Positions 33,495 to 53,624 of a stretch of 64,000 nt of DNA are shown piece after piece. The notes beneath the pieces are model-generated. The model was given only the letters and a program-made list of their open reading frames with translations, was not told the DNA's origin and ran no database searches. Position 1 is the first letter of the stretch. Every line of letters begins with the position of its first letter. The position numbers were made by a program, and so were the translations under genes. Source of the DNA: Micromonospora sp. DSM 45708 (GTDB taxonomy: Bacteria; Actinomycetota; Actinomycetes; Mycobacteriales; Micromonosporaceae). Where the stretch lies: NCBI RefSeq assembly GCF_039566955.1, contig NZ_CP154796.1:3782001-3846000 (forward strand). The letters are read 5' to 3'.

Positions 33495-34319
33495 TCAGAC
33501 GGTGCCGCGGTAGGGGGGCATGAACCGCAGGCGCGGCATCTGATCGGCGAGCACTCCCCCGTCGACGACCAGGTGGGTGCCGTTGACATAGCGGCCAGCG
33601 TCGGAGGCCAGCAACAGCAGCGCGCCGACACAGTCCTCCGGCACGCCGTAGCCGCCGCGCAGCGGGATCCGCTCCGCCCAGGCGGCCTCGAACGCCTGCC
33701 GGTCCAGGGGAAAGTCACCGTCGATCGGGGTGGCGATCATCCCGGGCGCGATGGTGTTGGCGGTGATGCCGTGCGGCCCGAGTTCGGCGGCCAGCGACCG
33801 GGTGAGCAGCTCCACCGCGCCCTTCGAGGCGTTGTAGTGGGCGAGCCCCGCCTCGGCGACCAGGCCGTTCTTCGAGGAGATGTTGACGATGCGGCCCGGC
33901 ACCCCGTCGGCGATCATGTGTTCGGCGACGCGTTGGGCGAGGAAGAAGACGGCGTCCACGTTGACCCGCATCACCTCGCGCCAGGCGTCGACGGTGATCT
34001 CGTTGAAGTGTTCCAGCCGGGCCACGCCGGCGTTGTTCACCAGGATGTGCACCGGCCCCAGGTCGCGGCGCACCCGGTCGACCCACGGAGAGATCCCCGC
34101 CGTGTCGGCCAGGTCCAGCGGGTACGGGTGGCAGGCGCGGCCGTGTTCGGTCACCGCGGCCACGACCGGCCCGAGGTCGACGCCGGGCCGGTCGACCACC
34201 ACCAGGTCGGCGCCGGCCGAGGCGAGGCCGACGGCGAACGCGGCGCCAAGACCCCGGGCGGCGCCGGTCACCACGGCCAGCCGCCCGGACAGGTCGAAGG
34301 AGGGCGGGACGAGCGTCAT
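33495..34319 (-). CDS. SDR-family NAD(P)-dependent oxidoreductase
   Basis: This 274-aa classical short-chain dehydrogenase shows TGAARGLGAAFAVGL (cofactor), ILVNNAGVARLEHF, the catalytic Ser region ISSKNGLVAEAG and HYNASKGAVELL (Tyr/Lys). It is the last gene of a four-gene operon with an acid-sugar dehydratase; its start overlaps the amidohydrolase stop (ATGA). In the non-phosphorylating fucose and rhamnose routes an SDR oxidises the 2-keto-3-deoxy acid to a diketo acid that a FAH-type hydrolase then splits; a FAH-type gene is present at 50978-51817. That assignment is inference. Confidence 0.87.
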   Translation of the reverse strand: MTLVPPSFDLSGRLAVVTGAARGLGAAFAVGLASAGADLVVVDRPGVDLGPVVAAVTEHGRACHPYPLDLADTAGISPWVDRVRRDLGPVHILVNNAGVARLEHFNEITVDAWREVMRVNVDAVFFLAQRVAEHMIADGVPGRIVNISSKNGLVAEAGLAHYNASKGAVELLTRSLAAELGPHGITANTIAPGMIATPIDGDFPLDRQAFEAAWAERIPLRGGYGVPEDCVGALLLLASDAGRYVNGTHLVVDGGVLADQMPRLRFMPPYRGTV

Positions 34320-35158
34320 ACCAACCCCAGCAGGTCGAGCGACGGACGGTGGATCAGCGCCTCGATCTGCCCGATGTCGAGCGGGTCGAGGCCGGGGATG
34401 CCGGGGACCCGGCCCACCGCCCGCAGCCCTTCGATGGAGGCGTCGACGGTGGTGAACGGGTAGTCGCTACCGAACAGCAGCTTGTGCCAGACGCCGTAGT
34501 CCTGCACCAGCCGGAGGCTGTGCCAGAGCTGGAACGGGCGGTAGTGCAACGCCGAGACGTCGGCGTAGACGTGCCGGTGCTTGCGGATGACCGCGATGCA
34601 CTCCCCCTCGTAGGGGTGGCCGAGGTGAGCCAGCACCATGCGCAGCTCCGGATGGCGGATCGCCACCTCGTCGAGGTGCACCGGGAGCGCGTAGCGCAGC
34701 GGCGCGGCGGAGACGAAGGTGGTGCCGGTGTGCACCAGCAGCGGCAGGCCGTGCCGCGCGGCGTAGGCGTACAGGTCGTCGTAGGCGGGGTCGGCGGGGT
34801 CGAACCCGGCGTACATCGGCATCAGCTTGATGCCCCGCAGGCCGAGGTCACGGTGCCCGTGCTCCAGTTCGTCGCGCCAGCCGGGCTGGGTGGGGTCCAG
34901 GGCGAGGTACCCGACCAGCCGGTCGGGGTGGACCGCCACGTACGCCGCCACCGCCCGGTCGTCGACCCAGAGGCCGGAGCGGCGCGCCTTGCCGCCCACC
35001 ACGATCGTCCTGGTGCCCGCCGGTGCGGTGGCCGCGTACTCCGACCACCGCACCGTCAGGTCGACGTCGCCGCCGTGCGCCCGGGACGCGTCGGCGGCGA
35101 AGGGGTCGCCGACGTGCTCCGGGCAGTCGAACAGGTGCGAGTGCACGTCGACGATCAT
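34316..35158 (-). CDS. Amidohydrolase-family protein (COG2159-like metal-dependent hydrolase)
   Basis: From ATG 35158, overlapping the upstream stop, the gene encodes 280 aa. MIVDVHSHLFDCPEHVG has the HxH pair; other ligands are in LLVHTGTTF (His), MVLAHLGHPYEGE (His) and LLFGSDYPFTT (Asp). The family includes decarboxylases and lactonases. In this operon it may hydrolyse an aldonolactone, as L-fuconolactonase-type amidohydrolases do, or process a later acid. An in-frame start at 35179 would overlap the dehydratase gene further and is less likely. Confidence 0.85.
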   Translation of the reverse strand: MIVDVHSHLFDCPEHVGDPFAADASRAHGGDVDLTVRWSEYAATAPAGTRTIVVGGKARRSGLWVDDRAVAAYVAVHPDRLVGYLALDPTQPGWRDELEHGHRDLGLRGIKLMPMYAGFDPADPAYDDLYAYAARHGLPLLVHTGTTFVSAAPLRYALPVHLDEVAIRHPELRMVLAHLGHPYEGECIAVIRKHRHVYADVSALHYRPFQLWHSLRLVQDYGVWHKLLFGSDYPFTTVDASIEGLRAVGRVPGIPGLDPLDIGQIEALIHRPSLDLLGLV

Positions 35159-36342
35159 CGGCGGTCCCGCTTCTCCCAACCCTCGGCGAACATGTTCCAG
35201 AAGCCGTGGCTCGGCGGGTGCTCGGCGAACACCTCGTCGACCAGTTCGACACCGAGGCCGGGCGCGGTGGGCAGCGCGACGTGCCCGTCCACCACCGGCA
35301 GAGCGCCGCGCACGGCCTCGAAGACGTAGTCCTCAAGGAGGTCGTCGAAGGTCTCCAGGATCTTGAAGTTGGGCATCCCGAGGACGGCGTGCACCGAGGC
35401 GGTGGTGCACAGCGGCGAGTTGGAGTTGTGCGGGGCGACCACCATGGCGTGCTGGTCGGCGATGGCCGCGAGTTTGCGCACCTCGGTGAAGCCGCCGGCC
35501 ATGGACAGGTCGGGCTGGATGATGTCGACCGCGTTCGTGGCGAACAGCCGGGCGTACTCGTAGCGGTTGTGGAAGTGCTCCCCGCCGGAGATCGGCATCG
35601 TGGCGCGGGCGCGCAGCTCGGCGTACCGCTCGATGTGCGTCCACGGCAACGGCTCCTCGAACCAGCCCAGGTCGAACGGCTCCAGCTCACGCACCAGCCG
35701 GACGGCGGTGTGCATGGCGAAGCGGGCGTGTCCCTCGACGAACAGCTCGATCCGGGGTCCCACGGCGGCACGGACGGCGGCGACGATGTCGACCGAGCGG
35801 CGCAGCTCGGTACGGGACAGCTCGCCGAGCCCTGCCCCGAACGGGTCGAACTTCAGCGCCGTGTAGCCCTTGGCGACGGTGGCGACGGCCCGTTCGGCGA
35901 ACGTCTCGGGCTCCCGCTCTCCGGTGTACCACCCGTTGGCGTACACCCGGACGCGGTCGCGGCAGGCACCGCCGGTGAGGCGGTACGCGGGCACCCCGAG
36001 GGCCTTGCCCATGATGTCGTGGAGGGCCTGGTCGACCCCGGACACGACGATTCCGCCGATGTCACCACCGCGCAGGTAGTCCCCCTGGTACATGCGCAGC
36101 CAGATCTCCTCCACGTCGAACGGGTCGGCGCCGATCAGGTGCCGCTCGGCCATCGCCTCGGCGAGCTGGCAGGTTTCCCGCGCCCGGTAGGGGTGGGTGA
36201 TCTCGCCGACGCCGGTGAGCCCGGCGTCGGTGTGCACGCGCACGTAGGAGAAGTCGCGCCAGGCGGTGCCCAGGGTGAGCGTCTCCACCCGGCTGATCCG
36301 ACCGGCGGGGCCCTCGGGTCGGGTCTTGTCGACGGTCAGCAT
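35155..36342 (-). CDS. Enolase-superfamily acid-sugar dehydratase
   Basis: The 395-aa protein is a mandelate racemase/muconate lactonizing enzyme family member: N-terminal capping domain (VRVHTDAGLTGVGEITHPYR), then a barrel with the KFDPFGAG segment, metal ligands in ELFVEGHARF, LGWFEEPLPW and ISGGEHFHNR, and APHNSNSPLCTTASVHAVLG. The His after the first Glu ligand (EGHARF) and the WFEEP motif fit galactonate-, rhamnonate- or gluconate-type dehydratases, which form 2-keto-3-deoxy acids. The exact acid sugar cannot be read from sequence. It overlaps its neighbours at both ends, so it is co-translated with the aminotransferase and amidohydrolase. Confidence 0.87.
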   Translation of the reverse strand: MLTVDKTRPEGPAGRISRVETLTLGTAWRDFSYVRVHTDAGLTGVGEITHPYRARETCQLAEAMAERHLIGADPFDVEEIWLRMYQGDYLRGGDIGGIVVSGVDQALHDIMGKALGVPAYRLTGGACRDRVRVYANGWYTGEREPETFAERAVATVAKGYTALKFDPFGAGLGELSRTELRRSVDIVAAVRAAVGPRIELFVEGHARFAMHTAVRLVRELEPFDLGWFEEPLPWTHIERYAELRARATMPISGGEHFHNRYEYARLFATNAVDIIQPDLSMAGGFTEVRKLAAIADQHAMVVAPHNSNSPLCTTASVHAVLGMPNFKILETFDDLLEDYVFEAVRGALPVVDGHVALPTAPGLGVELVDEVFAEHPPSHGFWNMFAEGWEKRDRR

Positions 36343-37724
36343 CAGGAGTGTCCTTCCCCGCCGGCGGTCGCGCCACCCATGGTGGCGGTGCCGGCCAGTT
36401 CGGTGGTCCCACCGGAGGCGAGGGTGTCCCGTACGGCCACCCCGGTGGCCTCGACCAGGCGGTCGATGTCGGCGTCGGTGTGGGCGTACGAGATGTGGTT
36501 GCGCTTGAGGTTCAACGGCAGCTCGAAGATGCCGTGCTCGCGCATCCGACGGCGGTACCCGATGAACATGCCGGCATCGTTGCGCAGCAGGTCGTCGTAG
36601 GTACGCGGTGTCGGGCCGGGCATGAAGTAGGTCACGAAGACGGAGCCGTGGCCGGTGACCACGGCGGGGACGTCCAGGTCGGCCAGGGTCGCCGTGATGC
36701 CCGCGCGGGCCCGTTCACCGAGGCGGTAGACGTGCTCGTGCACCGGTTCGGCGCGCAGCTTGCCGAGGGTGGCGAGGGCGGCGGCGACCACGGCGGGATG
36801 CCCGTTGTAGGTGCCGGCGAAGAACGCGGGCGCGCCGGGGCGGGTGCTGAACAGGTCCATCAGGTCCGCCCGGCCACCGAGGGCGCCGATCGGATAGCCG
36901 TTGGCGATGGCCTTGCCGAGCGTGGTCAGGTCGGGGACGACACCGCTGATCTTCTGCCAGCCGCCGAGGTCGTGTCGGAATCCGGTGATCACCTCGTCGA
37001 AGACCAGCACGCTGCCGGCCCGGGTGCACTCGTCCCGCAGCGCGACGAGGAACTCCTGGTCGGGCAGGAGGCACCCGACGTTGTGCGGCACCGGCTCGAC
37101 GATGACCGCGGCGATGTCGTCGCCGTGAGCGGCGAAGGCCGCCCGGACGGCGGCCACGTCGTTGAAGCGCAGCACGAGCGTGGCGTCGAGGACCTCGGGC
37201 AGGATCCCGGTGGAGATCGGATCGGGCCGACCCACCCGGTCCGGCGCGGAGATGACGTTGAGGCTGACCGAGTCGTGCCAGCCGTGGTAACAGCCCTGGA
37301 ACTTGACCACCAGACGTCGCCCGGTGGCCGCCCGGGCGACCCGCAGGGCATGGAAGGTGGCCTCGCTGCCGGTGCTGGTCAGCAGCACCTTCTCGATGCT
37401 CGGCACCAGGTCGTTGAGGGTCTCGGCGAGGTGGATCTCGCCGTCGGTCACCGCCACGCCGCACAGGTCCAGTCGGCTGCCGGCCTCGGCGACGGCGGCG
37501 TTGACGTCGGGGTCGTTGTGACCGAGCAGGGGCGGCCCGAACGCCGCGTGGTAGTCGGTGTAACGGCGTCCGTCCGCGTCCCAGAAGCACGCGCCGGAGG
37601 CGCCGGCGATCACCATGTCGGTGAGGCCGGGGATGCTGCGCTGCCCGCTGTTGACGCCGCCGGGGATGACCCGGCGCGCGCGCTCGGCCAGGGTGGCCCC
37701 CGCTGGGGCCGATCGTGAAGTCAC
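36342..37724 (-). CDS. Class III aminotransferase, glutamate-1-semialdehyde aminomutase-like
   Basis: The 460-aa PLP enzyme begins at GTG 37724 behind GAGGAGAAG. It shows RVIPGGVNSGQRSIPGL, TSTGSEATFHALRVARAATG, QGCYHGWHDS, VLVFDEVITGFRHDLGGWQK and the PLP lysine in LTTLGKAIANGYPIGALGG. The closest pattern is HemL, but location in a catabolic operon with an acid-sugar dehydratase argues for a paralogue acting on an amino sugar acid or a keto acid rather than tetrapyrrole synthesis. It is the first gene of the leftward operon, divergent from the IclR gene. Confidence 0.85.
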   Translation of the reverse strand: MTSRSAPAGATLAERARRVIPGGVNSGQRSIPGLTDMVIAGASGACFWDADGRRYTDYHAAFGPPLLGHNDPDVNAAVAEAGSRLDLCGVAVTDGEIHLAETLNDLVPSIEKVLLTSTGSEATFHALRVARAATGRRLVVKFQGCYHGWHDSVSLNVISAPDRVGRPDPISTGILPEVLDATLVLRFNDVAAVRAAFAAHGDDIAAVIVEPVPHNVGCLLPDQEFLVALRDECTRAGSVLVFDEVITGFRHDLGGWQKISGVVPDLTTLGKAIANGYPIGALGGRADLMDLFSTRPGAPAFFAGTYNGHPAVVAAALATLGKLRAEPVHEHVYRLGERARAGITATLADLDVPAVVTGHGSVFVTYFMPGPTPRTYDDLLRNDAGMFIGYRRRMREHGIFELPLNLKRNHISYAHTDADIDRLVEATGVAVRDTLASGGTTELAGTATMGGATAGGEGHS

Positions 37725-37810
37725 ACCTTCTCCTCATCGGTGCGGCGTGGCGACCCAGCCCGGTCGCACCGCCGCGGGTTTCCGCCGCGAGAGATATCCA
37801 TCAACTTTCA

Positions 37811-37843
37811 GAACGGTGTTCGGCATTACCGAACGTTGTTCGG
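37811..37843. promoter_or_regulatory. Overlapping GAAC/GTTC and CCGAAC/GTTCGG palindromes in the IclR divergent region
   Basis: CCGAACGTTGTTCGG (37829-37843) is a perfect 6-bp inverted repeat around GTT. GTTCGGCATTACCGAAC (37818-37834) is a second perfect one around five bases, and GAACGGTGTTC (37811-37821) a third. GTTCGGCAT is directly repeated 20 bp apart (37818 and 37838), two helical turns. Further CCGAAC and GTTCGG half-sites lie at about 37893-37921. This is the expected architecture for IclR tetramer binding between the aminotransferase operon and iclR. Confidence 0.8.
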
Positions 37844-37961
37844 CATACTAGGCACGCTTGATCGGCAAGGTCAACACAACGATCAACCATTTTCCGAACG
37901 GTTTTGTTACTCTGTTCGGCCACGGCGAACACGCTTAGCGCTTCTGACCGAAAGTAGGACC

Positions 37962-38777
37962 ATGACCACCACCGAAGCCGGCGACACCTCCCGCTACCTG
38001 GTGCGCAGCGTCAGCCGCGCGGCTGTGGTGCTGGAGGCGCTGGCCGCCGCCGCCCCGGGTGCGGGGCTGAGCGTCACCGACGTCGCCGGCGCCTGCGGGC
38101 TGTCCAAGAGCGCCGCGTTCGCCACCCTGCACACCCTGTGCCACCACGGTCTGGCCGCCGACGACGGCGAGGGGATGAATCGCCGCTACCGGCTCGGGAT
38201 GGCGCTGGCCCGCCTCGGCGTTCGCGCCCAACAGCAGCTCTCGCTGCGGGACATCGCCCGCCCGATGCTGGCCACGCTGACCCGCGAGACCGGGCTCAGC
38301 TCGCGGCTGGCCGTCCCCGAGGGCGCCCACGCGGTCGTCATCGACCAGGTCAGCAACGGTGAGCGCATCCAGATCGAACTGCGGATGGGCACCCGCGAGT
38401 TGCCCCACTGCACCGGGCTGGGCAAAGCGCTGCTGGCCGAGATGTCCACCCAGCAGGTCACCGAGCTGATCGGCCGGGTCGGGTTGCCCCGACGCACCGA
38501 CCACACGATCACCGACCTGGCCTCCCTCCTGGCGCACCTCGACGACGTCCGCAAGGCCGGCTACGCCCTCGACGACGAGGAGGACGCCGAGGGTGTGTTC
38601 TGCATCGGCAGCGCCCTGCGTGACCACACCGGGATGTGCTGCGGCGCGATCAGCGTGACCGGGTTGAAGCTGGGTCTGCCCAGTTGGCGGTACCAGGAGT
38701 TGGGCCGTCAGGTGCGGCAGACGGCCGAGGCCGTCTCGGTCCGGCTCGGTCACGTCCCGGCCGACACGACCTCTTGA
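37962..38777 (+). CDS. IclR-family transcriptional regulator
   Basis: From ATG 37962 the product is 271 aa. Residues about 15-75 form the IclR winged helix (RSVSRAAVVLEALAAAAPGA, LSKSAAFATLHTLCHHGL); the C-terminal effector domain (about 90-260) shows REIARPML-like RDIARPMLATLTRETGLSS, LPHCTGLGKALLAEMS and YALDDEEDAEGVFCIGSALR. IclR proteins typically sense acid-sugar or aromatic intermediates. It is divergent from the aminotransferase-dehydratase operon, with multiple palindromes between, and ahead of the beta-helix/transporter operon, so it probably controls both arms. A terminator hairpin follows its stop. Confidence 0.9.
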   Translation: MTTTEAGDTSRYLVRSVSRAAVVLEALAAAAPGAGLSVTDVAGACGLSKSAAFATLHTLCHHGLAADDGEGMNRRYRLGMALARLGVRAQQQLSLRDIARPMLATLTRETGLSSRLAVPEGAHAVVIDQVSNGERIQIELRMGTRELPHCTGLGKALLAEMSTQQVTELIGRVGLPRRTDHTITDLASLLAHLDDVRKAGYALDDEEDAEGVFCIGSALRDHTGMCCGAISVTGLKLGLPSWRYQELGRQVRQTAEAVSVRLGHVPADTTS

Positions 38778-38799
38778 CAGCCGGTTCACCGGCTGTTTA
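38777..38799 (+). terminator. Terminator hairpin after iclR
   Basis: ACAGCCGG (38777-38784), loop TTCA, CCGGCTGT (38789-38796), then TTT. The stem starts within the stop codon, so iclR is probably transcribed separately from the downstream operon. Confidence 0.75.
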
Positions 38800-38835
38800 A
38801 CGTTCCCGCCAACGCCGCGGCCCAGGTCACGGCGG

Positions 38836-38860: not shown

Positions 38861-39057
38861 ACTCGGGCGAACAGCTGACTCCCGACGCGCCGCAGCCCCG
38901 GCGCCGGGTGTTCCGGTCAGCAGCTCCGCCGCCTGCGCGCCTCGCGCGTTTGCCCGACCTTCCCCCGTCTCGCGGGCGTCCCCGTGCCGCCCGTGGGCCA
39001 CCGCACCGCCGTCAGGCGTCACGCCGGCCGGCTGGATCGCGAAGGTTGAGGCTCGCC

Positions 39058-41133
39058 ATGGGTCTACTCGGCACGTCCACCCTCACCCCCCGGGACCAGA
39101 TCCCGCACCTCGACACCGTCGCCGGCCTGGCCACCGTCGACCCCGCCACGCTGGCCACCCGCACCCTGGTGCACCTCGCCGGATACCGCTCCCCCGGCGA
39201 CGGTGGCGGCGGACTGCTGCGCTGGGATCCCACCAGCACCGCCCCCGCCAACGGCGGGACCGTGCACGACCCGTACCGCCGACAGCGGGGCCGGTGGCTG
39301 GCCCTGCACGACGGCACCGGTGACTTCCGACGGTTCGGGATCTTCGGCCGGGACACCCCCGCCGACGCCGCGCTGGACGCGATGGTCGCCGACCCGGCGA
39401 TCCACCGGATCGAGGCCCACACCGACCTGCGCTTCGTCCGACGGCACACGTTCGGACGCGGCGACATCGAGCTGGACTTCGGCGGGCACACCGTGCACAC
39501 CGACGGCATCGAACGCAACACCCACGACAACCCGTTCGGCGCGGTCCTCTTCTTCCGGGGCACCGTGACCGACACGGTGATCACCCACACCCTCACCGAG
39601 ACCGTTCCCGAACTGACCGACGTGTTCCCGGTGCCCGACTCGGGGCGGTTCACGGTCGGGCAGTGGTGGACGGCCACCAGCAACTCGCTGACCGGGGCGG
39701 ACGAGCGCGAGCTGCAGAAGATGGTCCAGGTCACCCAGATCGTCGACGGCACCCACATCCGGGTGGGCTACCTCAACGGCTGGCCCCTGGAGCCCGGTCG
39801 TACGGTCACCTGGCGACGGGTGGAGCCGGTCGAGCGCGCCCACGTCCGCAACATGGCCTTCCGGGGCCACGTCGCCTTCACCGGCGAGTATCCCGGCTCC
39901 GGCCCGGACGACCGCGAGTACAGCGGCTCCCACCCGATCGCCTACGAGTACGCGGTGCGCTGCGACGTCTCCGGCATCGACGCCACCGGCACCTGGTGGC
40001 CGGTGATCATGCGCCGCTGGTGCACCCACTTCACCACCGCCGGCTGCGTCCTGACCAACCCCCCGACCGTGATGTACGGCGGCGCCGGCTACCTCACCCA
40101 ACAGATCTACTGCCTCTACGGGCACGTGGTGGACTGCCGCACCTCGAACGCCCGACACCTCAACGACTGGACCGCGTCGGCGTACTGCACCGTGGAGAAC
40201 TGCCACGGCGACGGCGACGACGCCGGTGGCAACCCGTTCACCACCCACGGCCAGTACGAGCACGACCTCGTCTTCACCGGCAACTCCGGCCTGATGGACA
40301 TCGCCAACAGCGGTGGCCAGTGGGGCATCAGCGCCAAACGGATCACCGTCCGTCGCCACGTCTGCTCCTGGTTCGTCGCCGGCACCAAGATCACCGATCT
40401 GACGTTGGAGGACGTCCGGGTCATCGCCCGCTCCACCTTCGACCCCGCCGGCACGCTCCAGATCAACGCCGACGGCGCGCAGCTACGCGGTTGCTCGGCA
40501 CGCACGCTGAGCATCGCCCAACGCTCGGCCCGCTCCCGGCGGCCCACCGTCATCGCCGACTGCGACTTCGACCAGCCCGCCGGAACGGTCGTCGTGCAGA
40601 CCCCGGTCAGCAGCCCGGTGCACTTCGTGCGGACCACGCTGCGGGGCCTGGACGGGCCGATCCTGCGCGGCTCCGGCCCGGTGCGCTTCACCGACTGCAC
40701 GCTCACCGGAGCGCCCGATGCCGCCCCGCTGCTGGTCGGCGCCGCCGAGTTGGTGATCGACGGCGGCACCTTCACCGACACCGGCATCGAGCTGTCCGCC
40801 GTCCGCGACCAGCGACTCGTCGTCGACGGCGGCGCGGTGCTGACCGGCACCAATGCCCGCCGGGCGCTGCTGGGCCGGGTCGCCGGACCCGGCGCGGTCC
40901 GGGTGGAGCTGGGCCACTACCGCAGCGCCACCGACGACGCGGCCACCGCGCACGTCCGGCTGGACAGCGGCGTCAACCGGTACCGGGCCGTCGGCTCCCG
41001 GTTCGCCGGAGGCCGGCTGACTCTCACCGCCACCACCACGCTGCTGCACAGCGGCTGCGTCGAGGAGAGCGTCACCCGCGACCTGCCCGCCGACTCCGAC
41101 CGTGTCGTGACCGGCGACAACCTCACCCTCTGA
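39058..41133 (+). CDS. Right-handed beta-helix protein, no visible signal peptide (paralogue 1)
   Basis: The 691-aa product starts at ATG 39058. After an N-terminal part (RTLVHLAGYRSPGDGGGGLL, RRFGIFGRDTPADAALDAMV) resembling the pectate-lyase-like head of beta-helix enzymes, it has repeated short strands with Asn, Gly and Cys (AYCTVENCHGDGDDAGGNPF, HDLVFTGNSGLMDIANSGG, LTLEDVRVIARS, PTVIADCDFDQ), the hallmark of a parallel beta-helix. Sequence is very similar to the next gene along the whole length. Polysaccharide lyases and tailspike hydrolases have this fold; a degradative role is inferred from the neighbouring importer. Unlike paralogue 2 it has no export signal. I cannot place it in a named CAZy family. 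Confidence 0.75.
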   Translation: MGLLGTSTLTPRDQIPHLDTVAGLATVDPATLATRTLVHLAGYRSPGDGGGGLLRWDPTSTAPANGGTVHDPYRRQRGRWLALHDGTGDFRRFGIFGRDTPADAALDAMVADPAIHRIEAHTDLRFVRRHTFGRGDIELDFGGHTVHTDGIERNTHDNPFGAVLFFRGTVTDTVITHTLTETVPELTDVFPVPDSGRFTVGQWWTATSNSLTGADERELQKMVQVTQIVDGTHIRVGYLNGWPLEPGRTVTWRRVEPVERAHVRNMAFRGHVAFTGEYPGSGPDDREYSGSHPIAYEYAVRCDVSGIDATGTWWPVIMRRWCTHFTTAGCVLTNPPTVMYGGAGYLTQQIYCLYGHVVDCRTSNARHLNDWTASAYCTVENCHGDGDDAGGNPFTTHGQYEHDLVFTGNSGLMDIANSGGQWGISAKRITVRRHVCSWFVAGTKITDLTLEDVRVIARSTFDPAGTLQINADGAQLRGCSARTLSIAQRSARSRRPTVIADCDFDQPAGTVVVQTPVSSPVHFVRTTLRGLDGPILRGSGPVRFTDCTLTGAPDAAPLLVGAAELVIDGGTFTDTGIELSAVRDQRLVVDGGAVLTGTNARRALLGRVAGPGAVRVELGHYRSATDDAATAHVRLDSGVNRYRAVGSRFAGGRLTLTATTTLLHSGCVEESVTRDLPADSDRVVTGDNLTL

Positions 41134-43374: not shown

Positions 43375-43418
43375 GCCGCCGGGCCCCGGCAAGCGAGCGA
43401 GGAAACGAGGAGCAGCAG

Positions 43419-45940: not shown

Positions 45941-45952
45941 CCCCACCGGCCC

Positions 45953-46041: not shown

Positions 46042-46944
46042 ATGGCCGTACCAGCTCAGTTGCCGGCCCGGCGGGCCCGGCGGGTGATCGCCCGGCGCGA
46101 GGCACGATGGGGTCTACTCTTCGTCCTTCCCGCCTTCCTGCTGTTCCTCGCGTTCCGCTTCGGCCCGGCGGTCGCCGGGCTGGTGCTCGGCTTCATGGAG
46201 TACACGATCGGCGGCGACGCCGAGTGGACCGGCCTGGAGAACGCCCGCCGGCTCGCCGACGACCCGGTCTTCTGGCAGTCCCTGCGGGTGACCGTCGTCT
46301 ACACCCTGCTCTACGTGCCGCTGACCGTCGCCACGGCGGTCGGGCTGGCGTTGCTGGTCCGGCGCGGATTCCGGGGCGTCGGCTTCTTCCGGTCGGTGTT
46401 CTTCCTGCCGGTGGTCACCAGCCTGGTGCTGGTCGCCACGGTGTTCTCCTGGGTGTTCTCGTCCGCCGGCCCGTGGTCGCGCATCCTCGGCTGGCTCGGC
46501 CTGCCCGACGATTCGTGGCTGGCCTCCAGCGTGCTGGTGCTGCCGGCACTGGCGATGGTCGGCGTCTGGTCGCACTTCGGCTACGGCATGCTGATCGTGC
46601 TGGCCCGGCTCCAGGATCTGCCCCGCGAGCAGGAGGAGGCGGCGCTCACCGACGGCGCGGGCCCCTGGCAGCGATTCCGTTGGATCGTGCTGCCCCAGCT
46701 CAAACCGGTCCTGTTCTTCCTGCTGGTGATCGAGACCACCGCCTCCTTCCAGGTCTTCGACCTGGTGTACGCGATGACCGGCGGGGGCCCGGCCCGCGCC
46801 AGCTACACCCTCGTCATGGCCCTGTACGACCAGGGCTTCAAGTACTTCGACCTCGGCTACGCCAGCGCCATCGGTGTCGCCCTGTTCGCGATGACCCTGG
46901 TCGTCGCCCTGATCCAGCGGCTGACCCTCGGGAGGGACAAGTGA
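46042..46944 (+). CDS. ABC sugar transporter permease 1
   Basis: The 300-aa integral membrane protein starts at ATG 46042 (AAGAAGGATGG upstream) and shows about six hydrophobic helices (GLLFVLPAFLLFLAFRFGPA, VTVVYTLLYVPLTVATAVGL, RSVFFLPVVTSLVLVATVFS, VLVLPALAMVGVWSHFGYGM). The ATPase-contact loop is EEAALTDGAGPWQRFRWIVL. It pairs with permease 2 (start overlaps this stop) and the upstream binding protein. No ATP-binding subunit is encoded here; actinomycete importers of this class usually borrow a shared MsiK-like ATPase. Confidence 0.92.
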   Translation: MAVPAQLPARRARRVIARREARWGLLFVLPAFLLFLAFRFGPAVAGLVLGFMEYTIGGDAEWTGLENARRLADDPVFWQSLRVTVVYTLLYVPLTVATAVGLALLVRRGFRGVGFFRSVFFLPVVTSLVLVATVFSWVFSSAGPWSRILGWLGLPDDSWLASSVLVLPALAMVGVWSHFGYGMLIVLARLQDLPREQEEAALTDGAGPWQRFRWIVLPQLKPVLFFLLVIETTASFQVFDLVYAMTGGGPARASYTLVMALYDQGFKYFDLGYASAIGVALFAMTLVVALIQRLTLGRDK

Positions 46945-47849
46945 CCGCCACGAGCACCGCCCCCACGTCCACGTCCACCGCGCCCGGCCTGCCGACCGCG
47001 CCGACCCGGCGACGCCGCTCCTACCGGCCGCTGCAACCCGGGCCGGCCGGCACCGCTCTGCGCTACGTGCTGCTCGGCGTGGCCAGCGTGGTCACGCTCT
47101 TCCCGTTCTACGCGATGGTCGTGTTGAGCCTGAAACCCGCCGCCGCCGTCGAGTTCCCCGGCAGCCTGCTGCCGTGGCCGCTCGGTTTCGACGCGTACGA
47201 GACGGTGCTCGGCTCCCGGAGCATCCTGCGGTGGCTGTTCAACACCGCCGTCTACTCGGTGGTCAGCGTCGTCGCGGTGCTGCTGCTCGCCGCGATGGCG
47301 GGTTACGCGTTCGCCAAGAAGCGTTTCCCCGGCCGGGAGACGATGTTCTGGTCGTTCCTGGCCATGGTGATGGTGCCCTACCACGTCACCCTGATCCCCA
47401 CCTTCATCCTCATCGCGAAGGTCGGCGGGGTGGACACCTACTGGGGACTGATCCTGCCCACCCTGGCCAACGCCCAGGCGGTGTTCCTGATGCGGCAGTT
47501 CATCCAGGGGCTGCCGGACGAACTGTTCGAGGCGGCGAAGATCGACGGCGCGTCGGAGTGGCGGACGTTCCTGCGGATCGTGCTGCCGCTGTGCAAGCCG
47601 ATCCTGGCCACCCTCGGCGTCTTCGTCTTCCTGTGGCACTGGAACGACCTGCTCTGGCCACTGATCATCGGGCAGAGCGGGGACATGCGGACCCTCACCG
47701 TCGGCATCGCCTCCCTCCAGCAGGAGCAGGTGCCGCTCAACGTCATGCTCGCCGGCTCGGTCGTCGCGTTTGTGCCGATCTTCGCCGCCTACCTCGTGGG
47801 CCAGCGGTACTTCACCGAGGGCGTCACGATGTCCGGAATCAAGGGATGA
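46941..47849 (+). CDS. ABC sugar transporter permease 2
   Basis: The 302-aa permease starts at GTG 46941, overlapping the preceding stop. A Thr/Pro-rich cytosolic leader of about 40 residues precedes six helices (VLLGVASVVTLFPFYAMVVL, AVYSVVSVVAVLLLAAMAGY, FWSFLAMVMVPYHVTLIPTF). The EAA loop is EAAKIDGASEWRTFLRIVLP. It completes the channel with permease 1. Its stop overlaps the start of the epimerase-like gene (ATGA), tying transport to metabolism. Confidence 0.92.
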   Translation: MTATSTAPTSTSTAPGLPTAPTRRRRSYRPLQPGPAGTALRYVLLGVASVVTLFPFYAMVVLSLKPAAAVEFPGSLLPWPLGFDAYETVLGSRSILRWLFNTAVYSVVSVVAVLLLAAMAGYAFAKKRFPGRETMFWSFLAMVMVPYHVTLIPTFILIAKVGGVDTYWGLILPTLANAQAVFLMRQFIQGLPDELFEAAKIDGASEWRTFLRIVLPLCKPILATLGVFVFLWHWNDLLWPLIIGQSGDMRTLTVGIASLQQEQVPLNVMLAGSVVAFVPIFAAYLVGQRYFTEGVTMSGIKG

Positions 47850-48877
47850 GTGCAGTGTTCAGAAGTGAGTCCGAGGTGGAGGATCGGCTTTCCCAGCCGT
47901 CCACGGCGCTCGTCGCCGACCTGGCCGGCGGCGCGGGCGACCTGGTGGTGCTCGGCGCCGGCGGCAAGATGGGCCCGTCGTTGTGCCGGCTGGCGCGTCG
48001 GGGGCTCGACGCCGCCGGCCGCACCGGCGACCGGGTGTACGCGGTGTCGCGCTGGTCGGACCGGGCGGCTGCCGACGCGCTCGCCGCCGACCGGGTGGAA
48101 CCGGTGACGTGCGACCTGATGGGCGACGGCGACCTGGCCGACCTGCCGGACGCCACCGACGTGGTCTTCATGGTGGGCGCGAAGTTCGGCACCACCACCG
48201 CCCCCCACCTGGCCTGGATGGTCAACACGGTGCTGCCCGCCGCGGTGGCCCGCCGTTACCCGGCTGCCCGGATCGCCGCCTTCTCCACCGGCAACGTCTA
48301 CCCGATGGTGCCGGTCACCAGCGGCGGCAGCGTGGAGAGCGACCCGCCCGGCCCGATCGGCGACTACGCGATGAGCTGCCTCGGCCGGGAGCGGGTCTTC
48401 GCCCACGCCGCCGCGACCCGGGGCACGCCGGTCTCGGTGCTGCGTCTCAACTACGCGGTCGACCTGCGGTACGGGGTGCTCGCCGACATCGGCCAGGCGG
48501 TGCTGGCCGGGGACCCGGTGGACGTCACCACCGGCCACGTCAACGTGGTCTGGCAGGGGTACGCCAACGAGGTGGCACTGCGCTCGCTGCGCCACGCCTC
48601 CCCCGACGTGTTCACGGTGAACCTGACCGGCCCGGAGACCGCCTCGGTGCGCCGAATCGCCGCCCGGATGGGCGAACGCCTCGGCCGGCAGGTCTCGTAC
48701 ACCGGCTCCGAGGCGCCGACCGCGCTGCTCAACGACGCCACCCGCTGCCACGCGCTGTTCGGCTACCCGGACGTGCCGCTGGGCACGCTGATCGACTGGC
48801 AGGCCGACAGTCTGGCCGCCGGCCTGCCGACCTCCGGCAAGCCGACCCGGTTCGCCGTCCGCGACGGAAGGTTCTGA
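47846..48877 (+). CDS. NAD-dependent epimerase/dehydratase-like protein with atypical active site
   Basis: The 343-aa protein starts at ATG 47846. An extended-SDR nucleotide motif is in LVVLGAGGKMGPSLCRLARR, and the chain has FSTGNVYPMVP and SVLRLNYAVDLRYGVLADIG blocks of the family. At the usual YxxxK position the sequence is DYAMSCLGRERVF, so Tyr is kept but Lys is Cys. The catalytic mechanism may thus differ or activity may be lost. It lies between the permeases and the lyase gene in a tightly packed operon, indicating a retained role in sugar processing. Confidence 0.8.
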   Translation: MSAVFRSESEVEDRLSQPSTALVADLAGGAGDLVVLGAGGKMGPSLCRLARRGLDAAGRTGDRVYAVSRWSDRAAADALAADRVEPVTCDLMGDGDLADLPDATDVVFMVGAKFGTTTAPHLAWMVNTVLPAAVARRYPAARIAAFSTGNVYPMVPVTSGGSVESDPPGPIGDYAMSCLGRERVFAHAAATRGTPVSVLRLNYAVDLRYGVLADIGQAVLAGDPVDVTTGHVNVVWQGYANEVALRSLRHASPDVFTVNLTGPETASVRRIAARMGERLGRQVSYTGSEAPTALLNDATRCHALFGYPDVPLGTLIDWQADSLAAGLPTSGKPTRFAVRDGRF

Positions 48878-48878
48878 C

Positions 48879-49886
48879 ATGGTCCTGGACCTGCTGCGCG
48901 ACGGCGTGGTCATTCCCGCGCACCCGCTCGCGCTGACCGCCGACCGTCGCCTCGACGAGCGGCGGCAGCGCGCGCTGACCCGCTACTACCTGGCCGCCGG
49001 TGCCGGCGGAGTCGCTGTCGGCGTGCACACCACCCAGTTCGGCATCCGCGAGGCCGGACTCCTGCGGCCGGTGCTCGCCCTGGCCGGCGAGACGATCGAC
49101 GCCGAAGCCGGCCGTCCGGTGGTGAAGATCGCCGGGGCCTGCGGCGACACCGCCCAGGCTGTCGCCGAGGCGGCACTCGCCGCCGATCTGGGCTACCACG
49201 CGGTCCTGCTGTCCCCGGTGGTGCCCGGCGCCGACGAGGCGTACCTGCTGGAGCGGGCCCGGGCCGTCGGCGAGGTGTTGCCGGTGATCGGCTTCTACCT
49301 CCAGCCGGCCATCGGCGGTCCACGCCTGTCCACGTCGTTCTGGCGGGCCTTCGCCGACCAGCCGTCGGTGGTCGCGGTGAAACTCGCCCCGTTCGACCGA
49401 TACCGCACCCTGGAGGCGGTGCGTGGGATCACCGCCGCCGACCGGGGCGCCGAGGTGGCGCTCTACACCGGCAACGACGACCACATCCTCGGCGACCTCC
49501 TCGGCGACTTCGCCGGCCGCCGTTTCGTGGGCGGGTTGCTCGGTCAGTGGGCGGTCTGGACCCGCGCGGCGGTGACCATGGTCGAGCGGGTGCGGGCGGC
49601 CCGGGCCGGCGACGCGGCGGCGCTGACGGAACTGACCGGCCGGGCGGCGGCGGTCACCGACGCCAACGCGGCGGTCTTCGACGCCGTGAACGGTTTCCAC
49701 GGCTGCATCGCCGGGGTGCACGAGGTGCTGCGCCGGCAGGGTCTGCTCGACGGGGTGTGGTGCCTGGACCCGGCCGAAGGGCTGTCGCCCGGCCAGGACG
49801 CGGAGCTGACCCGGGTGGTCGCGGCCTACCCGTGGCTGACCGATGACGACTTCGTCGCGGAGCACCGCGACGACTGGCTCCGGTGA
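48879..49886 (+). CDS. DHDPS/NAL-family lyase
   Basis: This 335-aa protein has the class I aldolase barrel: LRDGVVIPAHPLALTADRRL near the N-terminus, VGVHTTQFGIRE at the substrate loop, the catalytic Tyr in VIGFYLQPAIGG and the Schiff-base Lys in VVAVKLAPFDRYRT. It is not close to the Hyp pathway paralogue at 7816. Family members cleave 2-keto-3-deoxy acids or dehydrate keto-deoxy acids, which matches a pathway with an acid-sugar dehydratase. ATG 48879 is one base past the preceding stop, and its own stop overlaps the next start. Confidence 0.85.
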   Translation: MVLDLLRDGVVIPAHPLALTADRRLDERRQRALTRYYLAAGAGGVAVGVHTTQFGIREAGLLRPVLALAGETIDAEAGRPVVKIAGACGDTAQAVAEAALAADLGYHAVLLSPVVPGADEAYLLERARAVGEVLPVIGFYLQPAIGGPRLSTSFWRAFADQPSVVAVKLAPFDRYRTLEAVRGITAADRGAEVALYTGNDDHILGDLLGDFAGRRFVGGLLGQWAVWTRAAVTMVERVRAARAGDAAALTELTGRAAAVTDANAAVFDAVNGFHGCIAGVHEVLRRQGLLDGVWCLDPAEGLSPGQDAELTRVVAAYPWLTDDDFVAEHRDDWLR

Positions 49887-50938
49887 CCGGCCCCCGGCCG
49901 GGCGTTGCGCCCGTGACCGCACCGCACCGCGCCCACCGCCCGGTGACGGTGGTGTCCGTGTCCGCCCCGCTGCGTGCCCAGTTCTTCCCGGGCCGCATCG
50001 GCGAGCGGTTGGCCACGATCACCGACGCCACGCTGGTCGACGCCCACGCGGCACTCACCGCCGCCGACCTGGCGCCGGTGCTGGCCCGGGCCGAGGTGCT
50101 GGTGACCTCCTGGGGCATGCCCCGGCTCGACGCGGCCCTGCTGGACCGCGCCCCGGCGCTACGGCTGGTGGCGCACACCGGGGCCTCGGTCAAGCCGTTC
50201 GTGACCCCCGAGATGTTCGCCCGGGGCATCGAGGTCACCCAGGCCGGGCAGGGCATGGCCCGCTCGGTGGCCGAGGTTGCCCTCGCCTTCACACTGGCCC
50301 TGCTGCACCGCACGCACCGGTTCGACCACGCGTTGCGGACCGACACGAGCTGGGAGCGGGCGGAACAGGCGCCGCCCCGGCACGAGATCCTCGGCTGTCC
50401 GATCGGCGTCATCGGCGCGTCCCGCACCGGGCGGGCGTACCTGGAACTGGTGCGCGTCCTGGGCGCGGACGTCAGCGTCCACGACCCGACCCTGACCGCG
50501 GCGGACGCCGCCCGGCTCGGCGCCCGGCTGGTCGGCCTGGACGACCTGCTCACCGGTAGCCGCGTGGTGGCGTTGCACGCGCCGACCCTGCCGGAGACAC
50601 GGCATCTGCTGGGCGCCCGCGAACTGGCGCTGATGCCCGACGGCGCCGGGCTGGTCAACACCGCCCGGTCGTGGCTGGTCGACGAGGCGGCCCTCGTCGC
50701 GGAGCTGACCGCCGGCCGGCTCGACGCCGCGCTGGACGTCTTCGACGACGAGCCGCTGCCCACCGGCCATCCGCTGCGGACGCTGCCCAACGTGCTGCTC
50801 ACCCCGCACCAGGCCGCCGGCACGGTGCAGGGCCGGCGGCGGCAGGGCGAGATCGTCGTCGACGAGATCGCCCGTCACCTGGCCGGCCAGCCCCTCACCC
50901 ACGCCGTGACACCGGACCTGCTCACCCGCACCGGCTGA
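49883..50938 (+). CDS. D-isomer-specific 2-hydroxyacid dehydrogenase
   Basis: The 351-aa protein begins at GTG 49883 (overlapping the upstream stop); a GTG slightly downstream, before TAPHRAHRPVTVV, is possible. It has a Rossmann motif variant in PIGVIGASRTGRAYLELVRV and the catalytic residues Arg in VNTARSWLVDE, Glu in FDDEPLPTGHPL and His in LTPHQAAGTV. Usual members have GxGxxG; here it is GASRTG, near normal. It should reduce a 2-keto acid or oxidise a 2-hydroxy acid made in the pathway, for example a keto acid from lyase cleavage. Confidence 0.87.
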   Translation: MTGPRPGVAPVTAPHRAHRPVTVVSVSAPLRAQFFPGRIGERLATITDATLVDAHAALTAADLAPVLARAEVLVTSWGMPRLDAALLDRAPALRLVAHTGASVKPFVTPEMFARGIEVTQAGQGMARSVAEVALAFTLALLHRTHRFDHALRTDTSWERAEQAPPRHEILGCPIGVIGASRTGRAYLELVRVLGADVSVHDPTLTAADAARLGARLVGLDDLLTGSRVVALHAPTLPETRHLLGARELALMPDGAGLVNTARSWLVDEAALVAELTAGRLDAALDVFDDEPLPTGHPLRTLPNVLLTPHQAAGTVQGRRRQGEIVVDEIARHLAGQPLTHAVTPDLLTRTG

Positions 50939-50977
50939 CGCCACCCACCTCGCACTCGCCACTCCTGGGAGGACACC

Positions 50978-51817
50978 ATGAGATTCATGCGGATCGGCGC
51001 CGTCGGCGCCGAACGACCGGTGCTGTTCGACGGCATCAGCCACTTCGACCTCAGCGGCGTCACGGGCGACATCGACGCGGCGTTTCTCGCCGCGGACCCG
51101 GCCGGACGGGTCCGGGCGGCCGGGCCGCTGCCCCGGATCGACGTGACCGGGCAGCGGGTCGGTGCCCCGATCGCCCGGCCCGGCGCGGTGCTGTGCATCG
51201 GTCAGAACTACGCCGCGCACGCCGCCGAGTCCGGTGCCGTCCCGCCGGAGCGGCCGATCCTGTTCCACAAGTCACCGAACACCGTGGTCGGCCCGTACGA
51301 CCCGGTGCTGGTCCCGCGCGGTTCGGTCAAGACCGACTGGGAGGTCGAGCTGGCCGTGGTGATCGGGACGCGGGCCCGCTACCTCGACTCACCGGCGCAG
51401 GCGCTGGCCCACGTGGCCGGCTACGCCGTCAGCAACGACGTGACCGAACGGGAATACCAGTTCGCCGACCCGGGCGGGCAGTGGGCCACCGGCAAGTCGT
51501 GCGAGACGTTCAACCCGCTCGGCCCGTGGCTGGTCACCCCGGACGACGCCGGTGACCCGCAGGCGCTGCGGTTGCGCTCGTGGGTCAACGGCGAACCCCG
51601 GCAGGACTCCCGGACCGCCGACATGATCTTCGGGGTGGCCCACCTGATCTGGCACCTGTCCCAGTTCACCGTGCTGGAACCGGGGGACGTGCTCAACACC
51701 GGCACCCCGCAGGGGGTGGCCCTGTCCGGCCGGTTCCCCTACCTGAGCGCCGGTGACGTGCTGGAGACCGAGATCGAGGGACTCGGCCGGCAACGCAACC
51801 CGCTCGCGCCGGCGTGA
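50978..51817 (+). CDS. Fumarylacetoacetate hydrolase (FAH) family protein
   Basis: The 279-aa protein starts at ATG 50978 behind GGGAGGACACC. The FAH fold is clear: AVLCIGQNYAAHAAESG, PILFHKSPNTVVGPYDPV, the metal-site Glu residues in DWEVELAVVIGTRARYL, YAVSNDVTEREYQ, and LLNTGTPQGVALS-like DVLNTGTPQGVALSGRFPYL. Members hydrolyse C-C bonds of diketo acids, including 2,4-diketo-3-deoxy sugar acids in fucose and rhamnose catabolism. That activity would fit with the SDR and dehydratase of the opposite arm. Confidence 0.88.
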   Translation: MRFMRIGAVGAERPVLFDGISHFDLSGVTGDIDAAFLAADPAGRVRAAGPLPRIDVTGQRVGAPIARPGAVLCIGQNYAAHAAESGAVPPERPILFHKSPNTVVGPYDPVLVPRGSVKTDWEVELAVVIGTRARYLDSPAQALAHVAGYAVSNDVTEREYQFADPGGQWATGKSCETFNPLGPWLVTPDDAGDPQALRLRSWVNGEPRQDSRTADMIFGVAHLIWHLSQFTVLEPGDVLNTGTPQGVALSGRFPYLSAGDVLETEIEGLGRQRNPLAPA

Positions 51818-52755
51818 GCGCCCCGGTCGAGTTCCGGCCGGCCACGCCGGCGGACGTGCCCTCACTGCACGCGCTGTGGGCCGAGGCGTTCCCCGGGACG
51901 CACGTGGCCGAGCTGCACGCCCGCGACCCCGGCGGCCTGGCGCGTACCTTCCTGGCGGTGCGGGTCGTGACGGTGGTCGCCGCCGTCCACTACCTGCCCC
52001 GCCGGATCCGCGACGGCGCCGGCGGGGTGGATCTGGTCGGCGGGGTGGCCAACGTGGCCACCCGGGTAGACGCACGCGGGCAGGGCCACATCCGCCGCCT
52101 GCTGGAGCTGGCCGGCGCGGCGATGGCGGCGGACGGCTGCGCCTGGTCGCTGCTGTTCACCGGCACGCCCGGCGTCTACCTGTCCAGCGGCTACCGCCCG
52201 TTCACCCTGCGCTACGCCAGCGGCCGGCCGGTGACCGGCACCGCCAGCGTGCCGCCGGGCTGGACGGTCCACGCGCCGGACTCGGTGGACTGGACCGAAC
52301 TCGCCGGGATACACGCCGCGTTCAACGCCCACCGGCCGCTCAGCACCGTACGCGATGCCGCTGACTGGGCGCTCCGGGTGCCGCTCTGGTACGCCCCGCC
52401 CGCCCGGACGCTGGTCGCCCGGCATCGCGGGCGGCCCGTCGGGTACCTGGTCGCGCGTTGGTCCCCCGGGCACGTGCGGGTGGTCGAGGTCGCCGTCCGG
52501 CCGGACCGGCCGGACGCTCTGCCCGTCCTGTTCGGTGCCGTGGCCCGGGCCGCCGCCGGCCACGACGTGCGGCGCTGCACGGCCCGGCTGCCCGCCGATC
52601 CGGCGATCGTGGCGGCGCTGCCCGCCCTCCTGACCGAGCCGGAGACGGAGTACGACGAGACCGGAATGGTCCGGCCGGTGCACGCGGCGCCCGAACACGT
52701 GCGGGCGGTCGTCGAGGCGCCCGACGCCTTCCACTGGCCGGCGGACTACCTGTGA
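51814..52755 (+). CDS. GNAT-family N-acetyltransferase
   Basis: From GTG 51814, overlapping the FAH stop, the gene encodes 313 aa. The acetyl-CoA region is VANVATRVDARGQGHIRRLLEL (about 68-90, with the R/QxxGxG/A-type RGQGHI) and CAWSLLFTGTPGVYLSSGYR. The C-terminal half (about 150-313) looks like a second, poorer GNAT or SCP2-like module. Substrate is unknown; in this operon it may acetylate an amino-sugar derivative or be a side gene. Confidence 0.75.
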   Translation: MSAPVEFRPATPADVPSLHALWAEAFPGTHVAELHARDPGGLARTFLAVRVVTVVAAVHYLPRRIRDGAGGVDLVGGVANVATRVDARGQGHIRRLLELAGAAMAADGCAWSLLFTGTPGVYLSSGYRPFTLRYASGRPVTGTASVPPGWTVHAPDSVDWTELAGIHAAFNAHRPLSTVRDAADWALRVPLWYAPPARTLVARHRGRPVGYLVARWSPGHVRVVEVAVRPDRPDALPVLFGAVARAAAGHDVRRCTARLPADPAIVAALPALLTEPETEYDETGMVRPVHAAPEHVRAVVEAPDAFHWPADYL

Positions 52756-53624
52756 CCGCCGCGCCGTGTGACGGTCTGCTGGAGCAGGTCACCGCACCTG
52801 TCGCCGGGCACGGGGAGGGGCCGGTGTGGTGTCCCGCCGACCGGCTGCTGCGGTGGGTCGACATGCTGGCCGGGGACATCCTGTCCCTGGACCCGGCGAC
52901 CGGGACGATCCGCCGCCGGCACGTCGCCCCGGTGGTCGCCGCCGTCCGACCACGATCGGGGGGCGGACTGGTCGCCGCGCTCGAGCGGGGCTTCGCGTTG
53001 CTGCGGGACGACTCGGTGGAACTGTTGCCGGAGATCTGGTCAGACCCGTCGGTCCGGATGAACGACGGCGGGTGCGACCCGCGGGGACGCTTCTACTGCG
53101 GCTCCATGGCCTACGACGCGACGCCGGGTCGGGCCGCCCTGCACCGGCTCGACCCCGACGGCACGGTCGAGACGGTCCTCACCGGGCTCACCGTCTCCAA
53201 CGGCCTCGCCTGGACCCGCGACGGCGACAGGGCCTGGTACGTCGACTCGGCGACACGGCGGATCGACGTCTTCGCCGTCGACCCGGCCACCGGCGCGCTG
53301 CGGGACCGACGACCGGCGGTGGTGGTGCCGCCCGACGCGGGCACGCCGGACGGCCTGTGCCTCGACGTCGAGGGCGGCGTCTGGGTCGCCCTGTGGGACG
53401 GGGGCGCCGTGCACCGCTACGGCCCGGACGGCAGTCTCACCGCCGTGGTGACGCTGCCGGTGCGGCGGCCCACCGCCTGCGCCTTCGGTGGCCCCGACCA
53501 CGCCGACCTGTACATCACGACCTCCCGTCAGGGACTGCCGGCCGACGACCGGTCCCCGGCGGGGGCGCTGTTCCGGATCCGGCCCCAGGTGCCCGGCTTC
53601 CCCGACCACACCTTCGCCGGCTGA
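52752..53624 (+). CDS. SMP-30/gluconolactonase family lactonase
   Basis: The 290-aa protein begins at GTG 52752, overlapping the preceding stop. The six-bladed propeller motifs are GHGEGPVWCPADRLLRWVDM (metal Glu), VRMNDGGCDPRGRFYCGSMA, GLTVSNGLAWTRDGDRAWYV (Asn) and GTPDGLCLDVEGGVWVALWD (Asp). It probably opens an aldonolactone produced by the Gfo/Idh enzyme, giving the acid for the dehydratase. It is the last recognisable gene of the long rightward operon. Confidence 0.9.
   Translation: MTAAPCDGLLEQVTAPVAGHGEGPVWCPADRLLRWVDMLAGDILSLDPATGTIRRRHVAPVVAAVRPRSGGGLVAALERGFALLRDDSVELLPEIWSDPSVRMNDGGCDPRGRFYCGSMAYDATPGRAALHRLDPDGTVETVLTGLTVSNGLAWTRDGDRAWYVDSATRRIDVFAVDPATGALRDRRPAVVVPPDAGTPDGLCLDVEGGVWVALWDGGAVHRYGPDGSLTAVVTLPVRRPTACAFGGPDHADLYITTSRQGLPADDRSPAGALFRIRPQVPGFPDHTFAG

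Follow-up and report, generated by a model that had tools for sequence, protein, structure and literature searches.

Tailspike-like beta-helix proteins in a conserved actinobacterial cassette with a carbohydrate importer and putative acid-sugar enzymes

What is the role of a gene cluster in which two tandem beta-helix proteins are encoded next to an ABC importer, a set of oxidoreductases and lyases, and a divergent operon of further sugar-acid-type enzymes? This question is raised by a locus located at positions 33495 to 53624 of a 64,000-nucleotide stretch of the Micromonospora sp. DSM 45708 genome (contig NZ_CP154796.1, positions 3,782,001 to 3,846,000), hereafter the window. The analysed genome comprises 7.0 Mb in one contig, and the most closely related loci are likewise found in Micromonospora. 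Four genes on the minus strand (SDR, AH2, MR and AT, together arm A) face a series of plus-strand genes that begins with an IclR-family regulator and continues through the beta-helix genes bh1 and bh2, GFO, the solute-binding protein SBP, two permeases, EPI, DHD, HADH, FAH, GNAT and SGL. The answer that we favor, and consider reasonably likely, is that the cassette serves the use of one exopolysaccharide, probably bacterial and containing acidic and/or amino sugars, through tailspike-like depolymerisation, import and non-phosphorylating breakdown to pyruvate. The features of the locus are as follows (ORF, open reading frame).

33495..34319, minus: SDR oxidoreductase (arm A); Pfam adh_short_C2, 1.4e-56
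34316..35161, minus: AH2, Amidohydrolase-2 family enzyme (arm A), ORF to 35179; Pfam Amidohydro_2, 1.4e-30
35155..36342, minus: MR, enolase-superfamily enzyme, probably an acid-sugar dehydratase (arm A); MR_MLE_C, 6.1e-62
36342..37724, minus: AT, class III aminotransferase, HemL-like (arm A); Pfam Aminotran_3
37817..37835, no strand: one-mismatch copy of the proposed IclR operator, an imperfect palindrome
37913..37931, no strand: proposed IclR operator, exact palindrome TGTTCG-N7-CGAACA, from the sequence pattern
37962..38777, plus: IclR-family regulator, ORF opens at 37740, likely ATG at 37962; IclR_C, HTH_IclR
39058..41133, plus: bh1, tailspike-like beta-helix relative of type I (MDIANSG), ORF opens at 38908; 61-63% identity to bh2
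41167..43374, plus: bh2, tailspike-like beta-helix protein of type F (MTFANSG); model, fold matches, phage spike homology
43440..44681, plus: GFO, Gfo/Idh/MocA oxidoreductase, start uncertain, ORF 43128-44681; Pfam GFO_IDH_MocA
44705..45940, plus: SBP, ABC importer solute-binding protein; SBP_bac_1, 5.7e-32
46070..46944, plus: P1, ABC permease 1, approximate start; translation judged by eye
46941..47849, plus: P2, ABC permease 2, approximate start, ORF 46107-47849; BPD_transp_1
47846..48877, plus: EPI, extended-SDR/epimerase-type protein; Pfam Epimerase
48879..49886, plus: DHD, DHDPS/N-acetylneuraminate-lyase-type class I lyase; profile matches to lyase chains, K168
49883..50938, plus: HADH, D-isomer-specific 2-hydroxyacid dehydrogenase; Pfam 2-Hacid_dh_C, 1.6e-45
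50978..51817, plus: FAH-superfamily hydrolase; Pfam FAA_hydrolase
51814..52755, plus: GNAT acetyltransferase; Acetyltransf_9, 8.3e-13
52752..53624, plus: SGL, SMP-30/gluconolactonase, ORF 52458-53624; Pfam SGL, 2.2e-73

Much of this gene list had been proposed in an earlier sequence-only reading of the DNA, and Pfam agrees with it for SDR, Amidohydro_2, MR_MLE, the aminotransferase, Gfo/Idh, SBP, permease 2, the 2-hydroxyacid dehydrogenase, FAH, SGL and IclR. To place the locus among its relatives, one genome per species was scanned with a beta-helix alignment; 197 stretches were confirmed, and the 80 best of them were condensed into 73 distinct loci, the two loci of the analysed genome itself (L001 and L002) having been excluded before counting. 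The choice of the best 80 makes the 73 loci lean toward close relatives, flanks of 10 kb were taken and many loci end at contig edges; genes were called with a simple caller and clustered, and their starts may be truncated. The gene order recurs in these 73 loci, which carry 22 genus labels (one being that of an unassigned metagenome-assembled genome), and this is more than chance would produce. The locus is a conserved actinobacterial cassette. Its core, defined as at least four of SBP, P1, P2, EPI, DHD and HADH, is kept in 51/73 loci and in 43 of the 51 loci with near-full flanks, and the six genes are contiguous in that order in 48/73. Individual counts per 73 loci are 55, 53 and 52 for the importer genes SBP, P1 and P2, 52 each for DHD and HADH, 51 for EPI and 48 for GNAT (these last two having been omitted from the sequence-only reading), 40 for GFO, 32 each for AH2 and MR, 30 for AT and 29 for IclR. 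FAH was called in 24/73 loci, a count lowered by contig edges and by the 10 kb limit of the flanks, and SGL in 10/73, which says little as the gene sits at the flank limit. The cassette is patchy in its distribution: 3/296 genomes of the class contain the beta-helix family and 2/396 genomes of the phylum contain EPI, both at E<=1e-30, and AH2 was found at E<=1e-40 in 2/396 genomes of the phylum, the analysed genome being included each time. No characterised equivalent was found in the open-access literature searched, in line with the sequence-only reading, which recognised none.

Neither of the two beta-helix ORFs has a Pfam match at E<=0.001, and a sequence profile of the family found no match in the PDB at E<=1. 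The predicted structure of bh2 is a confident beta-helix (mean pLDDT 86.7) and bh1 shares 61-63% identity with it, the model being of bh2 only, which bears out the earlier proposal of tandem beta-helix proteins. When the bh2 model was compared using Foldseek, with the folds in the VIA lists as scope, depolymerases ranked first: the model lies among capsule/O-antigen depolymerases, and other sugar-active beta-helices follow close behind. The model thus matches carbohydrate-active folds, although the same list also holds one adhesin, PfbA; a match of the beta-helix proteins to a known non-carbohydrate family, which the sequence-only reading had named as a refutation, was not seen in that form. 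Further, a tblastn match to the spike of coliphage ESCO8 extends over 90% of the query at 25% identity (E 5e-42), and the beta-helix family matched 6 of 50,697 phage records. Residues R405, H406, D409, Y415, N420, T433, H434, G435, E438 and H439 are common to the family and both aligned phage spikes (ESCO8 and ValSw3-3). At the level of sequence, bh1 and bh2 are thus relatives of phage tailspikes. PHROGs returned no match for bh2 and, for bh1, two weak ones at the N-terminus. Many of the 120 listed bh homologues carry the database name 'peptidase C14', which the bh2 model and its fold matches do not support. An IMG/VR contig (L089, locus 53% GC) carries a tandem pair of bh-like stretches at 88-3891 that share 40-50% identity with bh2; one of the two is split across frames.

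Compared with solved phage tailspike depolymerases (LKA1 gp49, phi297 gp61, AP22 gp54 and the Klebsiella K1 lyase), the beta-helix fold of bh2 is alike over about 400-490 residues, at 9-15% identity in the rows listed. Unlike tailspikes, the bh genes are chromosomal and lie inside a catabolic operon and not in a virion module, and many bh copies carry a Tat-type leader. An arginine pair plus a hydrophobic stretch was found at the N-terminus of 57/109 long bh copies, those below 550 aa having been left out; most type F copies and about two thirds of the type I copies carry export leaders. In the window, bh2 has an RR (Tat-type) leader as judged by eye from its translation and may therefore be exported, whereas no leader was seen for bh1 from the ATG at 39058. 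We hypothesize that bh1 and bh2 are paralogous tailspike-like enzymes that cut the polymer. Since leaders are found in only about two thirds of type I copies and not in this one, bh1 may act either outside the cell or on imported fragments.

A polymer of plant origin (pectin, a gum or a hemicellulose side chain) would fit the GH5/CBM2 unit that adjoins the locus, with bh1 and bh2 acting as polygalacturonase- or pectate-lyase-like enzymes. We regard this as unlikely, because the sequence relatives of the bh proteins that turned up outside Actinobacteria are phage proteins, the best of them annotated as a tail spike, because no pectinase came up when the PDB was searched by sequence, and because Foldseek places depolymerases first for the bh2 model. 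The GDSL gene of the adjoining unit, expected within most flanks, was matched in only 1/73 loci (40%, L075); the GH5 gene would mostly lie beyond them. Among 97 of the 148 listed flanking ORFs of at least 200 aa, which were scanned for their families, GH18 was found in 3/97, and the best 25 of 183 families included no further glycan hydrolase or lyase; the clustered genes of the 73 loci showed no intracellular glycosidase that belongs regularly to the cassette. As no further glycan-cutting gene was seen regularly in the cassette, bh1 and bh2 may cleave two different linkages of the bacterial exopolysaccharide that we favor as substrate. Its small products would then be imported by SBP and the two permeases, which form a carbohydrate ABC importer set (P1 being judged by eye). 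Among the ORFs of 33495-53624 scanned with Pfam, neither an ATPase nor a sugar kinase was found, as the sequence-only reading had stated. Three OB_MalK genes are located elsewhere in the genome and are candidates for the link to this importer, which would be powered by a MalK-type ATPase encoded there.

EPI and DHD form a pair that is adjacent in 51/51 loci in which EPI was called. The model of EPI places it with the extended SDRs, close to TerB and UDP-sugar epimerases. TerB, an NADP-dependent oxidoreductase of terfestatin biosynthesis (PDB 6nd7, 6d2v), is its nearest solved relative at 18% identity. The YxxxK catalytic dyad of extended SDRs is replaced in EPI by Y176 and C180, both invariant in 18 aligned rows, with a Cys where SDRs usually have Lys. 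DHD had been called a DHDPS-type lyase from sequence alone, an assignment that profile matches to N-acetylneuraminate lyase and DHDPS chains uphold, although these matches are remote (28.6 and 34.6 bits) and the window copy has no Pfam match even at E<=10. PF00701 is listed for many of its homologues, and the L082 homologue matches it at E 5.6e-8. Like the class I DHDPS/N-acetylneuraminate lyases, DHD has an invariant Lys168 (20 rows) and a near-invariant Tyr140, which we take to be the Schiff-base lysine and the catalytic tyrosine of that superfamily; the underlying alignment (A3) contains one row, L057, that is out of frame at the C-terminus and was kept as is. DHD differs from these lyases in that the window copy is too divergent for PF00701 and in that it adjoins EPI. 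In GFO, cysteines C222, C225, C231 and C276 (aligned numbering) are invariant in 13 rows and possibly form a structural metal site. Together with HADH, these proteins would constitute a cytosolic core in which GFO and its partners oxidise one sugar and the resulting 2-keto acid is cleaved by Schiff-base chemistry. In another actinobacterial genome (L082, 8851-10892), EPI and DHD homologues of 56% and 63% identity are likewise adjacent. The genes beside them encode an M20 peptidase, a HemL-like aminotransferase and a protein of the glucosamine-isomerase family, and the 19.5 kb taken contains no bh gene.

The nature of DHD also invites the proposal that the polymer is a cell-wall glycopolymer of actinobacteria or another amino-sugar or nonulosonic-acid polymer; DHD would then be a sialate-lyase-type aldolase, and the amino sugar would be handled by EPI, AT and GNAT. 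N-acetylneuraminate lyase is indeed the nearest solved relative of DHD, GNAT and AT are present in 48/73 and 30/73 loci, and the distant EPI-DHD pair just described lies among genes of amino-sugar type. Yet the likeness of DHD to these lyases is as remote as its bit scores indicate, no sialidase was among the best 25 of 183 neighbor families, and AT occurs in 0/23 of the loci that carry a different second arm, so that not every locus would use AT for an amino step. This proposal appears about as improbable as a plant polymer.

The second arm of the cassette is exchangeable. Arm A was scored when at least two of AH2, MR and AT were present and arm B when at least two of three alternative genes were. 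Arm A was found in 32/73 loci and arm B in 23/73, both together in 0 and neither in 18, several of which are explained by contig or flank ends. SDR, AH2, MR and AT are contiguous in 29/73. Arm B consists of a GntR regulator, a protein that resembles neutral ceramidases only below threshold (E 0.29), a different enolase-superfamily enzyme (22/23) and an SDR (22/23), Pfam having been run on one u3 and one u6 example for the last two. Arm A turned up in Streptomyces (14 loci), Micromonospora (3), Nonomuraea (2), Actinacidiphila (2), others and one Herbiconiux, and arm B in Microbacterium (13), Cellulosimicrobium (4), Oerskovia (4), Isoptericola (1) and one record labelled Sphaerisporangium cinnabarinum (L025), which has the layout seen in Cellulosimicrobium and whose label may be wrong. 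Separation of the two operons in most relatives was not seen: where flanks are near-full (51 loci), 19 of the 23 loci with arm A also hold the core, so arm A stays with the core where present, yet it is not universal, being absent from 28, and 21 combine arm B with the core. These counts agree with the earlier view of the stretch as one polysaccharide/acid-sugar locus. As each arm brings an enolase-superfamily enzyme and an SDR, the two read as supplying the same kind of chemistry. The swap amounts to a natural experiment and can be read as two answers to one intermediate or companion sugar. Arm A might instead be a self-contained operon for degrading amines or amino acids that shares only its regulator with the glycan operon. 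The amine-handling family of AT points that way, as do the surroundings of a distant AH2 homologue (36%), which include a class III aminotransferase and an alanine dehydrogenase. We consider this very unlikely, because no locus combines arms A and B, because each arm borders the same bh and core genes, and because AH2 (E<=1e-40) was found in only 1/395 other genomes of the phylum.

According to the excerpts of PMC6336799 and PMC11199699, 2-keto-3-deoxy acids can undergo either aldolase cleavage (route I) or oxidation followed by hydrolysis (route III). The locus resembles route III for L-fucose, L-rhamnose and pentoses, as given in those excerpts, in having a dehydratase-type enzyme, an SDR, an FAH hydrolase and no kinase, and it encodes an ABC importer and a regulator together with these route III-type enzymes. 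EPI, DHD, HADH, AT, GNAT and the beta-helix pair are absent from route III as the excerpts of the same two sources present it. The sequence-only reading had matched the set to the diketo-hydrolase branch of non-phosphorylating fucose/rhamnose pathways, and of this the superfamilies fit while the sugar finds no support. The best NCBIfam match of FAH is 2,4-didehydro-3-deoxy-L-rhamnonate hydrolase (DhyDRhmHlse), at 250.7 bits below the cut-off of 500, and MR reaches 135.1 bits against a cut-off of 393 for L-rhamnonate dehydratase; an assignment to fucose or rhamnose was therefore rejected, as both testable curated cut-offs were missed. MR scored higher with gluconate/galactonate dehydratase (273.2 bits, cut-off 750) and galactonate dehydratase (257.4, cut-off 311), and none of the 13 NCBIfam families it matched is named L-fuconate dehydratase; its PDB matches include 2poz. 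The best 25 of 224 NCBIfam models for the arm A SDR all lie below cut-off and include gluconate 5-dehydrogenase and KduD, with no 2-keto-3-deoxy acid 4-dehydrogenase by name among them. AH2, considered as a counterpart of the cog3618-type lactonase of route III, belongs to Amidohydro_2 and matched only 3irs and 3nur in the PDB. The best PDB matches of AT are glutamate-1-semialdehyde aminomutases, and PRK00062 scores 391.7 bits, below its cut-off of 398. A chemistry of the fucose/rhamnose class is plausible on these grounds; no named enzyme or sugar is supported by the sequences. The locus holds a candidate for each branch, DHD for cleavage and SDR with FAH for oxidation and hydrolysis, and so fits either two different sugars or a forked route. 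In the exchangeable arm, the MR dehydratase and the SDR, here with AH2 and AT, may convert a second sugar acid to pyruvate and a hydroxy acid by dehydration, oxidation and hydrolysis, with the FAH hydrolase and the SMP-30 lactonase perhaps as accessory enzymes.

The gap between AT and IclR, which lies between the divergent operons, holds an exact TGTTCG-N7-CGAACA palindrome together with a one-mismatch copy. The exact palindrome is a single copy in the 7.0 Mb of the own genome and was found in 19 of 30 AT-IclR gaps including that of the window; in 20 rounds of plain letter shuffling, no single palindrome occurred in more than 2 gaps. Excluding the window, the gaps of 29 related loci hold the exact form in 18/29 and a relaxed form in 28/29, and no exact copy was found elsewhere in the 588 kb of those 29 loci. 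Across the 73 loci the exact palindrome is present in 18/32 with arm A, 0/23 with arm B and 2/18 with neither arm. Its carriers range from Herbiconiux to Streptomyces, although kinship inflates these counts. With up to one mismatch, the own genome has 29 sites per strand, compared with 7 for a reversed-pattern control, and only the exact site and its neighbor in the AT-IclR gap were used from this search. Exact palindromes are also found in 16/18 of the relatives' genomes, some with several. TGTTCG-N7-CGAACA is probably the operator of IclR, with the regulator itself as the presumed binder acting in the divergent promoter region. Four palindrome places outside the loci were considered as further regulon members and none was counted, two lying inside other ORFs and two before an ArsR-like gene. 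The latter are tandem copies 26 bases apart (L093, about 7927-7971, and L094, about 7908-7952) in front of a gene that was judged ArsR-like by eye, with a divergent transporter; they are perhaps an ArsR operator.

A bolder form of the exopolysaccharide reading is offered tentatively, and we hold it to be doubtful: actinobacteria and phages would share one spike family, the diverged type I/F bh pair would head a mobile 'capsule-eating' operon, EPI-DHD, in which an SDR lacking its lysine is coupled to a Schiff-base lyase, would carry out an undescribed step on an unusual bacterial acid or amino sugar, and two unrelated interchangeable arms would handle a companion sugar. Should the exopolysaccharide reading as a whole be right, it would add a genetically accessible new family to the bacterial polysaccharide depolymerases, link phage tailspikes to catabolic use, and make the cassette a tractable system for the function of both the EPI-DHD pair and the beta-helix family named 'peptidase C14'.

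Several neighboring genes in the window were treated, without proof, as lying outside the unit, namely those for GH5+CBM2, GDSL+CBM2, TauE and DUF899. Directly left of the locus, 29126-33268 encodes a LacI-type regulator ORF, a GH5 cellulase with CBM2 and a GDSL hydrolase with CBM2, a group that looks like a separate cellulose-type unit. A TauE/SafE family transporter (53969-54787, minus) adjoins the locus on the other side, beyond the flanks taken for the relatives, and is followed by a DUF899 protein (56773-57720, minus). At the right edge of the window, a Type I polyketide synthase module with AT, DH, KR, ACP and thioesterase domains occupies 59331-63998 (minus), and a DUF1800 protein is encoded at 22021-23322.

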